Assembly (NCBI GenBank): GCA_035532555.1
Contig: DATKQS010000012.1
Coordinates: forward strand, 1-64,000
Source of the DNA: Thermoplasmata archaeon
GTDB taxonomy: Archaea > Thermoplasmatota > Thermoplasmata > Lutacidiplasmatales > UBA184
Length of the DNA stretch: 64,000 nucleotides
Direction: 5' to 3'
Shown: positions 8,487 to 41,727 of the stretch, piece after piece
Layout: each line of letters opens with the position of its first letter
Numbering within the stretch: the first letter of the stretch is position 1
Program-made: the position numbers and the translations under genes
Notes under the pieces: model-generated
What the model was told of the DNA's origin: nothing
The model's input: only the letters and a program-made list of their open reading frames with translations
Databases searched by the model: none

Positions 8487-11400
8487 CTACCGCATCTCCT
8501 CGAGCTCGAGCCGCATGATCACGCCGAGTCCGATCAGCTCCTCCAGGAGGAGCTTGAACGAGTAGCTCATCTCGATCGGATAGATGGACGAGGTGTTCCC
8601 GCAGCTCGGGCAGCGGAGCGAGCCCGCCCGCGCGTCGGGGATCGCGATGTGGCCGCACTCCGAGTTGCCGCAGACGTACTGGATCGTACCGTCCGACTGA
8701 TCGAGCAGGCGGTCCTTGATCACCATCGCGACGCCGTGGCCGATCAGGCAGTCGCGCTCCATCTCTCCGAACCGGAGACCTCCCTGGCGGGAGCGCCCCT
8801 CGGTCGGCTGCCGGGTGAGGATCTGAACGGGCCCGCGCGAGCGCATGTGCATCTTGCCCGCGACCATGTGGTGGAGCTTCTGGTAGTAGATGACGCCCAT
8901 GAAAATCTCCGCCTCAAAGCGGCGACCGGTCATGCCGTCGTAGAGGGTCTCCCGTCCGGACGGATGCAGGCCGAGCGCCTGGAGGCCCTCGCGCAACGCC
9001 TCCTCTCGCTCCCCGGAGAACGCCGTGCCGTCGATCGTGCGGCCCTCGAGCGCGCCGACCTTGCCTCCCAACATCTCGAGGACATGGGCGACCGTCATGC
9101 GCGACGGGATGGCATGCGGATTGATCAGCAGGTCCGGCGACATTCCATTCATCGTGAACGGCATGTTCTCCTGGGGGACGATGAGGCCAATGACCCCCTT
9201 CTGCCCGTGCCGGCTCGCGAACTTGTCGCCGAGCTCGGGAATGCGCTGGTTGCGGACCTTGACCTTGACGAGCTTGGAGATATTCTCTCCCTCCGTCAGG
9301 ATCACGTTGTCGACCCAGCCGGACTCCCCAAAGCGGACGGTGACGCTCGTCTCGCGGCGTTTCTGAGGCGTCAGCAGGTCGGTCTTCTCCTCCAGGAAGC
9401 GCGGCGGGCTCGTCTTGCCGACGAGCACGTCGCCTTCGCTGACCTCGAGCTCGGGGAAGATGAGGCCGTCCTCGGCGAGATTGCGGTAGGCGGTGTCGAC
9501 GCGTGCTCCCGTCACATCCGGCCGTGGGATCTCGAAGCGATCTTCCTGACCGCCGGGATACTTGCGTTCCTCGCCCCGGTACGTCCGGAAGAACGAGGAG
9601 CGGCCGAGCCCGCGCTCGATCGATCCCCGCGAGAAGACGAGCGCGTCCTGCATGTTGTATCCCTCGAAGGATAGGACCGCGACTACGAAATTCTGGCCGG
9701 CGGGACGCTCGGTGAAGTGCACGTAGCGCATCGTCTGCGTGCGAAGCAGCGGCGACTGCGGATAATGCAACAGATGACCCCGCGTGTCAGGACGGCGACG
9801 GTAGTTCACCGACTCGACGCCGAGCGCCTGCTTCGCCATCGCCGAGCCCATCGTGTTCCGCGGAGCGGAGTTGTGCTCCGGGTACGGGATGAGGCCGGTC
9901 GTGACACCGAGCATCAGGTTCGGGTCGATCTCCAAGTGCGTGTGGCGCGGATCGAGCAGCGTGGGCGTCTCGAAGGTGGCGTGGCAGTGCCCGCACTCAA
10001 CGGTGGCACCCTGGCCCTTGCCGCCCGCGGAGAGCCATTTGACGTCGGAGCGGCTGAGCGCGTGCTCGCACTTGGGGCACCGGTCGGGAGGCACCGACGC
10101 CTCCACCGCGATGAGGGCGTCCTCCTCCTCTTCCGCATCCATCCACTCGACGGCGCCGGCCCGGATGAGGTCGGAGTACGTCCGGGTCCCGATCGTGAGC
10201 TCCTCGAGGTCGGAGCGGCTGACCTTGGGGGTCGCGTTCTGAACGAAGACGAGCGGGCGGCGTAGCCGACCGGAGTCGGAGTGCACGATGACCTCGTTCA
10301 TCGCTTCGTCATACCGGACATTGATCTCGTAGGTCTTCTCCCCGAGCGTGGGCGAGAGCGTCCCCGCGCGGCGGCGCTCGCGGATCTCGCGCACGAGCTC
10401 GATCGGGTTCGAATGCAGCCCGATGAGATTCCCATTGACGTAGACACGCGCGGCCCTCTTCCCCTTCGGGGCGGCCGATTCGCGGAAGACCTCGGGGCCG
10501 ATCTCGCGGGTGTTGAGATCGCGCAGGATCAGCGCCACCTCCTCCTCGTCGGCGCCTTCGGAGACATCGACGCACAGCGCGTAGTTCTTGACGAGGCCGC
10601 AATTCTGACCTTCGGGGGTCTCGTTCGGGCACAGGCGCCCCCACTGGGTGGGGTGCAGATCGCGCGCCTCGAAGTGGGGTTGGCTGCGCGTGAGCGGGCT
10701 CGTGACCCGGCGCAGGTGGCTGATCGTGGACATGTGACTGGTCCGGTCGAGGACCTGGCTGACTCCCGACCGACCTCCGACCCAGTTTCCCGTCGCGAGG
10801 GCGTGGACCAGACGCTGGGTGAGCAGATCCGGGCGGATGGCGCTCGCGATCCGCAGGTCCTTCTTGCGCGCGAACGAGCGCTCGAGCTGGTACTTCAGGT
10901 CCTTGAGCAGGAGGCTGAAGGCGACGCGGAAGAGATCCTCCATCAGGTCGCCGGCGAGCTTGAGGCGCTTGTTCGCGTAGTGATCCTTGTCGTCCTCTCC
11001 TCGCTCCTTGAGGTGAAGCTCGAGGACCGTCCGCGCCATGCGCGCGAGGTACAGCGCCTTCTTCAGCCGGTCTTCGCGCGTGTCCCCGAGGTGCGGGAGG
11101 AGCGAGCGGTCGAGGATGCCGTCCACTTTGCGCTGCCGGTACTCCTTCGCCTGCCCCGTCGCGAACTTCTTCTCGAGGAACAGGAGCGCCTGTTCCGGGT
11201 TGAGGATCCCCTCGGGCGGGTAGTTCTTCTTCGAAAGGCACTCCTCGAGATTGACATTGAGGAGGTGCTTCATCGTCTGGACGAACGGTTCGTCCAGCGG
11301 CAACAGCTCTCCGAGGACCGCCTGGAAGATCTCCTCGTCGTTGTTCATCCCGAGGGCCTTCATCAGGATCGTGAGCGGGATCTGCCCGCTCGCCGTCGGG

Positions 11401-12161
11401 ACGCTGACCTGGAGGAGCCCGTCCTTCTTCTTCTCGACGACCGTGAGCGACCGGTACCCACCGCGCTGGCTGAACACTTTAGCGCTCTCGATGGGCGTCC
11501 CGTACCGCTCGCTGTACTCCGCGAAGATCCGGTTCGGTGCGAGGTCTTCGAGGCTGATGATGACGCGTTCCGTTCCACCGATGATGAAATATCCGCCGGG
11601 GTCGAGGGGATCTTCCCCGTACTCGACGAGCTTCGCACGGTACTCCTCATCGGAGATGGGGACACCGGAGTCGCGCTCGATGTTGACGCGGTTGAGGTTG
11701 CACGGGCGGCTCTTGACCATGATAGGCATGTCGCCGATGTGCACGGTCTCCGGCGCGCGCTCGACGCCGTTCTCGACGACGGTGACGTTGAGGTAGATCG
11801 GGGCTTGGTAGGTGAGGTTGCGCAGACGCGCTTCCATCGGGGTCAAGGTGGGCTTAGAGCCGACGGGCTCCTTGACGAACGGCTGTCCGACGAAAATGGT
11901 GGACTCCGCCGACGGGTTCACGAGGTTCGTGCGGGTGTCCCGGCGCCGCCCGACGCGGACGTGAATAGAGCTCTTCGTCTTCTGAACGTCGAGGCGGACG
12001 ACGCCGCGCTCGCCGGCGTCCTCGCTGACGCGGGCATCGTCGACGATCCGCTGCATCCGCGAGTTCGGGTTGTCGTTTGTCGGTAGGAAATCGTTGAAAC
12101 TCGCGAGATGGTGGTTGACGATCGACCGCTCCCGGAAGAAGGCGTCTACGATTTCTCGCAT
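8487..12161 (-). CDS. rpoB: DNA-directed RNA polymerase subunit B (undivided)
   Basis: A 1,224-aa single-chain second-largest subunit combining the regions that are separate B'' and B' in methanogens and haloarchaea. Conserved stretches include [29 protein letters not shown], the lysine-rich [15 protein letters not shown] region and the C-terminal [12 protein letters not shown]. Zinc ligands are seen in CPKCEHAL...CGHCH and CGNSECGH...CPSCG. An undivided B subunit is consistent with Thermoplasmatota (and Thermococci). It begins seven bases after the rpoH stop, within the same operon. Confidence 0.98.
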
Positions 12162-12167
12162 GGAATT

Positions 12168-12509
12168 TCAGTCCCCCCCGCTCGACGGGACGATGAGCCG
12201 GTAGGCGATCGCTTCCCCCGCCGTCTCCGACTGCCGGCGGATCCGGACCAGGCGCCCGGTGAGGTTCTCGCGCGCGTCGCGCGCCTTCACGTAGGCGAGA
12301 TCGGTCTTCAGACCGGGATCGTTGGCGAGGATCTTGGGGAGCCGCTCGGGCGGGGTCCCGAGGTCCTCCAACACCTTCCGGCTCTCCGTCTCGCTGAGCA
12401 CCTCATGGCGGGGCACCATGTGGTGGGCGACGAACGGTCGAGCCTGGACGGGCGCGCTCGGCGACTTCGAGCTCTTCTTGGACCGCGTTCGGGGGGTTGC
12501 AGGAGTCAT
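12168..12509 (-). CDS. rpoH: DNA-directed RNA polymerase subunit H (Rpb5 homologue)
   Basis: A 113-aa small polymerase subunit equivalent to the C-terminal domain of eukaryotic Rpb5. The signature HHMVPRHEVLSETE and the later LPKILANDP...VRIRRQSETAGEA...YRLIV match the family. A basic Ser/Lys/Pro-rich leader of about 25 residues precedes the domain. GAGGA six bases before ATG is a good ribosome binding site. It is the first protein gene of the polymerase operon and follows the tRNA-Lys gene by only 21 bases. Confidence 0.95.
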   Translation of the reverse strand: MTPATPRTRSKKSSKSPSAPVQARPFVAHHMVPRHEVLSETESRKVLEDLGTPPERLPKILANDPGLKTDLAYVKARDARENLTGRLVRIRRQSETAGEAIAYRLIVPSSGGD

Positions 12510-12544
12510 GGAGATCCTCGAGGAGGGTCACGGGCCCGGGGGGA

Positions 12545-12582
12545 TGCTCGGAGGATTTCCGCGCGCCGCGCGGGAACCCGCG
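12545..12582 (-). other. tRNA-Lys intron 2 (38 nt, T-loop position 59/60)
   Basis: A full bulge-helix-bulge: T-stem GGGGG/CCCCC outside, central helix TTCG/CGAG (4 bp), bulges AAC and CAT (3 nt each). The inner helix is GCGGGTT/AATCCTC with one mismatch, continuing into CCGCGC-GGC-GCGCGG. Cleavage after the second bulge base yields T-loop TTCGAA+T, the universal sequence. Confidence 0.9.
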
Positions 12583-12622
12583 TTCGAACCCCCGACCAAC
12601 TGGTTAAAAGCCAGTTGCTCTT

Positions 12623-12651
12623 TGCCGGGCCGCCGAGGGCATCGGTCGACC
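12623..12651 (-). other. tRNA-Lys intron 1 (29 nt, D-loop)
   Basis: A bulge-helix-bulge can be drawn exactly. The central 4-bp helix is CCGG/CCGG, with 3-nt bulges TTG (5') and CAA (3'). The inner intron helix is GTCG-CCGA paired with TCGGCGGC (one bulged A, loop TGCCC). Cutting after the second base of each bulge joins CCGGTT to AAGAGC. The outer helix is weak, as often for non-canonical introns. Confidence 0.85.
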
Positions 12652-12732
12652 AACCGGACTGAGCTACGGGCCCGATCCCGCTCCGAGGAACGGAGACCCG
12701 AGCCGTGTATTTCAGCCTATCTGCGCCCGAGA

Positions 12733-41625: not shown

Positions 41626-41727
41626 TGCAGGTGCCGGGAGCTTCGCCGCGGATCGATCGCGATCCGCCGTTTCGAACCCGGGCGGTCAGCTTGGAAGGCT
41701 GACATCCTACCACTAGATTACACCTGC
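41626..41727 (-). tRNA. tRNA-Gly(UCC) with T-loop intron
   Basis: Acceptor GCAGGTG/CACCTGC, discriminator A, D-arm ATCT-AGTGGTA-GGAT, anticodon arm TCAGC-CTTCCAA-GCTGA (anticodon UCC), T-stem CCGGG/CCCGG. A 31-nt insertion interrupts the T-loop; removing it gives a 71-nt tRNA with T-loop TTCGAAT. A TATA-like CATTAACG at 41766-41773, overlapping the end of the Cgi121 gene, fits its promoter. No CCA encoded. Confidence 0.94.
41640..41670 (-). other. tRNA-Gly intron (31 nt, T-loop position 59/60)
   Basis: Bulge-helix-bulge: T-stem CCGGG/CCCGG outside, central helix TTCG/CGAA, bulges AAA and GCT, inner helix CGGCGGATC/GATCCGCGG with one G-G mismatch and loop GCGATC. Cleavage after the second bulge base rejoins TTCGAA to T, the same position as in tRNA-Lys. 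Confidence 0.9.

Follow-up and report, generated by a model that had tools for sequence, protein, structure and literature searches.

A predicted two-intron tRNA-Lys(UUU) gene conserved in Thermoplasmatota, and the alpha-prime-2 endonuclease of its genome

Non-canonical tRNA introns in archaea

Euryarchaeota with alpha4 or alpha2 splicing endonucleases have been described as carrying single canonical introns only (PMC4090602), and alpha2 enzymes as cutting canonical bulge-helix-bulge (BHB) motifs only (PMC4033280). The alpha-prime-2 enzymes are likewise described as narrow (PMC6379350, PMC12397907). Accounts of them conflict, however: the homodimeric form is also said to cut bulge-helix-loop (BHL) motifs in full-length pre-tRNA (PMC6379350), and homodimeric EndA is reported to cut BHL motifs in general (PMC8707768). 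Short introns at non-canonical sites, among which 20/21 and 59/60 are already listed, are found in Crenarchaeota (Thermoproteales), Nanoarchaeota and ARMAN (PMC4090602, PMC4033280), where one tRNA can hold several introns with BHB-type motifs. Korarchaeum, which combines a homodimeric alpha2 EndA with non-canonical introns in its genome, was called the only such case in 2014 (PMC4033280). A recent case beyond the Crenarchaeota comes from the Asgard archaea Atabeyarchaeia and Freyarchaeia, in which numerous non-canonical introns, several to a tRNA in some genes, were found by hand, some of them missed by tRNAscan (PMC11291895). Our literature searches turned up no description of introns in the D- or T-loop from Thermoplasmatota; some may already be listed in a database (e.g., tRNAscan-SE 2.0 Table S7).

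Here, we analyzed a tRNA-Lys(UUU) gene in a stretch of 64,000 nt of archaeal DNA (the window). The RpoB encoded just downstream of the gene is 100% identical to that of Thermoplasmata MAG YP1.bin63 and 89% identical to that of Ca. Lutacidiplasma silvani, which places the host among the Thermoplasmatota, close to Lutacidiplasmatales. An rpoB search among plasmids gave no match. The introns resemble those of Crenarchaeota, Nanoarchaeota and ARMAN, but the host belongs to the Thermoplasmatota (former Euryarchaeota) and has an alpha-prime-2 EndA, not an (alpha-beta)2 or epsilon2 enzyme. The intron positions and motif kinds are already known from other archaea; the pairing of taxon and enzyme contradicts the reviews (PMC4090602, PMC4033280). 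In most sampled Thermoplasmatota families, all of which have alpha-prime-2 EndA where this was examined, an essential tRNA retains introns in its D-loop and T-loop, in some cases three in total, and the enzyme-intron coevolution rule becomes directly testable inside one enzyme class. The first-pass annotation of the locus had called multi-intron tRNAs with T-loop sites best known from Thermoproteales. This is right for the literature, but in Thermoplasmatota it is the usual layout of this gene.

The tRNA-Lys(UUU) locus and its conservation

The unspliced gene occupies 143 nt of the reverse strand (12531..12673) and scored 131.7 bits with our own covariance model R1, the training set of which includes the window sequence itself. 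It lies 5' of an rpoH-like gene (12168..12509, identified by reading the ORF sequence) and of an rpoB-like gene (8487..12161), all on one strand; the former, directly downstream, served as a synteny marker and the latter was used to find syntenic relatives. The reverse strand reads GGGCCCG TA GCTC ... GAGC ... CTTTTAA ... GGGGG TTCGAA ... CGGGCCC G. The anticodon UUU lies inside an uninterrupted CUUUUAA loop, and the body is of the lysine type. Cutting out 29 nt (12651-12623) and 38 nt (12582-12545), as the first-pass annotation had proposed, gave a 76-nt tRNA-Lys(UUU) that was recognized by ARAGORN. The acceptor (7 bp), D (4 bp), anticodon (5 bp) and T (5 bp) stems of the spliced form are all perfect. 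Neither the unspliced gene nor the form from which the D intron alone had been taken out was recognized by ARAGORN, which called tRNA-Lys(ttt) only once the T intron was removed and drew the full cloverleaf when both were removed. In the window, the gene was overlooked by ARAGORN and reached 28.1 bits in the Rfam search, below the gathering cut-off of 29.

We considered whether the locus is a decayed pseudogene or an assembly artefact, with a normal tRNA-Lys(UUU) elsewhere. The gene is skipped by standard tRNA finders and the genome is 96% complete, so that a second copy could be missing. The first-pass annotation had advised looking for such a copy. In the 96%-complete genome none was found by the Rfam model or by the pattern CTTTTAAN{0,2}CC, the one match being the window, and an intronless tRNA-Lys(UUU) would clear the cut-off by a wide margin. 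The tRNA-Lys(CUU) gene is intact (L014), and AAA codons occur in rpoB, a DEAD-box ORF and a purL-like ORF. The perfect stems of the spliced form also speak against decay, as do exons that are conserved with compensatory change and the same layout in independently assembled genomes, one of them with 100% RpoB identity. The pseudogene or artefact reading is thus largely refuted, and we give it next to no credence.

The syntenic tRNA gene, about 0.5 kb upstream of rpoB, was parsed in 69 relatives. The D insertion was present in 69/69 and the T insertion in 67/69; one of the 67 T-insertion loci (L099) was imperfectly parsed, and in the two remaining relatives (L060 and L097) the T-loop is uninterrupted. 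Since the insertions occupy homologous sites in these syntenic genes, they are not a product of chance. Several lineages have a third insertion at 37/38. Column identity was 0.94 for the exons, against 0.63 for the D insert and 0.50 for the T insert. The D central helix was paired in 70/70 sequences including the window, through compensatory changes: whether the D-loop exon bases are TAGG, CCGG, TCGG or CAGG, the intron end is complementary every time. Shuffling the intron halves among the 68 unique sequences left the D helix paired in 38 of them on average and in no more than 50. The T central helix was fully paired in 64/68.

In alignment A1 (48 sequences), 93.4% of cells pair and 20 pairs have changed on both sides. 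The A1 covariation was 0.308 versus 0.133 after shuffling (0/500 shuffles reached 0.308), a control that ignores relatedness among the sequences, and at most 0.122 when the structure was slid, a control that somewhat favours the A1 structure because this is the window's own pairing. A search with R1 gave a match in 201/201 class genomes; some of these matches are intronless tRNAs, so the presence of an intron can be judged only from the length and sequence of the match.

On these sequences, the multi-intron tRNA-Lys(UUU) is real and conserved, and it is almost certainly functional. The first-pass annotation is borne out in its main point, a tRNA-Lys(UUU) gene with BHB-type introns in the D- and T-loops and an intact anticodon loop. 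Very probably, this is a functional single-copy gene whose two inserts would be spliced by the alpha-prime-2 EndA and the RtcB of the genome to yield a 74-nt tRNA. In three loci of f10-type and related genomes (L098, L198 and L217), the tRNA-Lys(UUU) has T-loop or anticodon-loop introns of about 60-105 nt, far above the usual length.

Splice sites and motif geometry

Homologues without one or both inserts occur in families f6, f7, f11, f12, f15, f21 and f26 of the class and f28, f33, f37, f48 and f49 of the phylum. The intronless orthologues are 74 nt in total, with a 9-nt D-loop, AGCTAGGTA, and in nearly all of them the T-loop is TTCGAAT. Orthologues without the T intron (L060, L097, L190, L230, L232-L235 and others) read GGGGTTCGAATCCCC or similar. 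The intronless, D-only, T-only, D plus anticodon and three-intron alleles all reduce to one mature tRNA-Lys(UUU) sequence.

Since homologues without the insert show an intact T-loop, the T-intron site is fixed at 59/60, exactly as the first-pass annotation had placed it. The T-loop intron is 38 nt long (12545..12582, reverse strand). It separates exon 2 (12583..12621), which holds the UUU anticodon arm, the variable loop and the 5' T-arm to position 59 in (nearly) invariant A1 columns, from exon 3 (12531..12544), which holds position 60, the 3' T-stem, the 3' acceptor strand and the discriminator base. In the central helix, TTCG of the exon (T-loop bases 54-57, 12585..12588) pairs with CGAG of the intron (12547..12550), as identified by the pairing and covariation analysis. 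The motif has both 3-nt bulges and consists of a 5-bp stem and a 7-nt loop in which the predicted cut separates bases 6 and 7, just like the canonical 37/38 site. The T-stem is the outer helix and abuts the central helix formed by bases 54-57 and the 3' part of the intron; in the window, a C.T mismatch follows the first pair of the inner helix. Judged by its sequence, the T-loop site would be a near-strict BHB. As in canonical 37/38 introns, the 4-bp central helix uses the first four loop bases, although the intron lies in the T-arm, and the gene in the window is without the anticodon-loop intron that relatives in several families carry as a third. Given that this geometry is that of a canonical anticodon intron, the T-loop intron needs no relaxed enzyme. 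The T stem-loop is sized like an anticodon arm, and by this geometric argument of our own the T site should be acceptable to an enzyme able to cut 37/38 introns.

The D-loop intron was correctly recognized in the first-pass annotation, but each of its two cut sites was probably placed one base too far in. The 20/21 site is most likely on the sequence comparison, with an intron of 31 nt (12622..12652, reverse strand), exon 1 (tRNA positions 1-20) at 12653..12673 and a predicted mature tRNA of 74 nt. Three observations favour it. First, the intronless orthologues are 74 nt long with a 9-nt D-loop, whereas the register first proposed (29 nt, 12623-12651) leaves a 76-nt tRNA with an 11-nt D-loop. 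In addition, the bases that the 29-nt register would leave in the mature loop are variable (T/A/C and A/C/G/T). Finally, position 16 and the opposite base, a pair outside the central helix, covary among the 36 loci whose D region is 40 nt long (23/36 paired versus 15.7 on average after shuffling, p 0.0018). The pair that completes the 20/21 register is a T16.C mismatch in the window, which leaves a one-base uncertainty on the exact D cut site. The intronless alleles make 12651-12623 the second choice, and we retained it as the alternative. All 36 loci that share the window's type have a D region of exactly 40 nt despite varying intron sequence; in other families it is 36 to 60 nt.

In the D central helix, which pairs in all sequences, CCGG of the exon (12654..12657) faces CCGG of the intron (12625..12628). 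The motif has the 4-bp exon-intron central helix and two 3-nt bulges of a BHB, and the minimum free energy fold reproduces it. The 5' bulge and the central helix are regular; opposite the 3' bulge, two or three bases of the D-loop stay unpaired, as in a bulge-helix-loop, and the outer helix is set off by an internal loop. Because the 3' bulge belongs to this internal loop, the D motif counts as relaxed, and relaxed specificity may be needed for the D-loop intron. The first-pass annotation had concluded that this lineage has an endonuclease of relaxed specificity. The canonical-like geometry of the T intron does not support this, but it possibly applies to the D intron. That the D motif is not a strict BHB, while alpha-prime-2 enzymes are described as narrow (PMC6379350, PMC12397907), counts against splicing by such an enzyme. 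Conservation of the D-loop intron in these lineages favours the view that alpha-prime-2 enzymes cut BHL motifs.

Based on these motifs, we propose the following course. The D-loop (the region of positions 17-19) and the T-loop (54-57) would pair with the 3' ends of the two short insertions to form BHB-type motifs. The alpha-prime-2 EndA would cut at 20/21 and 59/60, in the T-loop after the second bulge base on each side, and RtcB would join the three exons into the 74-nt tRNA-Lys. The predicted junctions are AGCTAGGT-AGAGC and TTCGAA-T. We infer cleavage, ligation and the order of these events from the genome sequences. A functional tRNA might conceivably also retain the inserts as enlarged D- and T-arms, as they fold into hairpins and the unspliced RNA keeps its acceptor and anticodon stems. 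However, the elbow-forming T-loop bases would then be sequestered in the BHB helix, the inserts vary widely in sequence and length between lineages while orthologues without them are otherwise identical, and the pairing pattern is that of EndA substrates. We regard retention as very improbable and continue with splicing.

Splicing endonuclease and other tRNAs of the genome

The first-pass annotation had pointed to a heterotetrameric or epsilon-type endonuclease. Neither was found. The PF01974 search gave a single EndA gene, encoding 354 aa with two fused PF01974 units, which is the alpha-prime-2 homodimer type. An (alpha-beta)2 heterotetramer was ruled out by the presence of one EndA gene, though a very divergent beta subunit could escape this search, and the epsilon2 form of ARMAN (a three-unit chain of about 390 aa) by the two units and the length. 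The nearest PDB entries are M. kandleri 5x89 and A. fulgidus 1r0v/2gjw. In alignment with A. fulgidus and M. jannaschii, the catalytic Tyr/His/Lys positions are kept in the C-terminal unit (FKYG, SHARYL and VRKE). No insertion of a crenarchaea-specific loop (CSL) was present at the site seen in the A. fulgidus chimera 3p1y, where the protein reads YGSKLGDRLELSLIE, the same length as wild-type A. fulgidus; none was seen in the aligned EndA of class or phylum relatives. This differs from Korarchaeum, whose EndA is said to carry a CSL-like loop. The enzyme shares two fused units, a catalytic C half and the lack of a CSL with the alpha-prime-2 EndA of A. fulgidus (1R0V, 2GJW) and Thermoplasma acidophilum (2OHC), but it has a longer N half with an RGG-type loop and occurs in a genome with many non-canonical introns. 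EndA was present in 60/61 relatives searched, nearly always with both units in the same reading frame. Only one RtcB (E 2.4e-174) is encoded in the genome.

The long N half with its RGG-type loop (residues about 100-130 of EndA P0002; homologues L113-L126, L245-L254) is common to most intron-bearing families and is shortened or lacking in f12, f15 and A. fulgidus. The loop, FxVxPRGGxPxKTPSxxWxxAxSER, is found in most intron-bearing lineages and is absent in A. fulgidus, f12 and f15. Introns in tRNA-Lys were present in 24/27 families with two recognizable PF01974 units versus 0/5 with one (Fisher p 0.0003, a value that ignores phylogeny, from a table of 32 families compiled by hand from one or a few genomes each). 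We treat this association as a lead. Both findings would fit an EndA that has acquired broad specificity, a long alpha-prime-2 form in which the well-preserved pseudo-catalytic half and the RGG loop act like the crenarchaeal CSL or the ARMAN ASL. We consider this rather unlikely. The association is uncorrected for phylogeny, and the short forms of f12, f15, f21 and f26 may be one clade. Families f7, f27 and f37 have two units yet no tRNA-Lys intron, and a short-EndA genome (G188, f12) still has a candidate tRNA-Arg(CCU) with D- and T-loop introns (L185). In addition, the RGG loop is homologous to the catalytic-half loop and may reflect retention rather than gain, and nothing puts it near RNA. 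It is a tentative proposal, to which we would give less than even weight, that Thermoplasmatota represent a third independent route to broad-substrate tRNA splicing, in which relaxed D motifs and T BHBs are both cut by a long alpha-prime-2 EndA that has neither CSL nor ASL, the long N half with its RGG-type loop is decisive, and lineages with a shortened EndA have lost most D- and T-loop introns.

The splicing apparatus would serve other tRNAs as well. The Rfam search of the genome gave 43 tRNA-like matches, 42 of which were read as tRNA genes; the census rests on this search of the 96%-complete genome and on individually examined stretches. No tRNA for His, Ile(GAU), Leu(UAG) or Pro(GGG) was found in the Rfam census. 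These may be multi-intron genes below detection or may fall in assembly gaps. T-loop inserts of 26-34 nt at 59/60 were seen in eleven other tRNAs (Arg-UCG, Gly-UCC, Ser-GCU, Ala-GGC, Ser-GGA, Ser-CGA, Asp, Gln-CUG, Asn, Glu-CUC and Arg-UCU), and their removal gave a perfect tRNA each time. One of them, tRNA-Gly(UCC), lies in the window near tRNA-Ser(UGA) (41626-41727, reverse strand) with a 31-nt T-loop intron at 41640-41670; it was overlooked by ARAGORN and falls under the Rfam cut-off. The other ten are loci L143, L145, L146, L149, L151-L153 and L027-L029. As T-loop introns put twelve genes here below or barely at standard detection, the tRNA sets of these genomes look incomplete.

By eye, D-loop inserts were found in the initiator Met (L147) and Arg-GCG (L150) tRNAs, and anticodon-loop introns in Met (L020), Tyr (L021), Trp (L026) and Leu-UAA (L148). 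ARAGORN labelled L150 as Pro-UGG; we read its loop, CTGCGGA, as Arg(GCG). In total, 19 introns were seen in 18 genes, 15 of them non-canonical. The T-loop site dominates (12/19), in contrast to Crenarchaeota, Nanoarchaeota and ARMAN. Among the ten T-intron loci outside the window, those whose loop reads TTCA have an A.G mismatch in place of the fourth central pair (intron GGAA, GGAG or GGGA).
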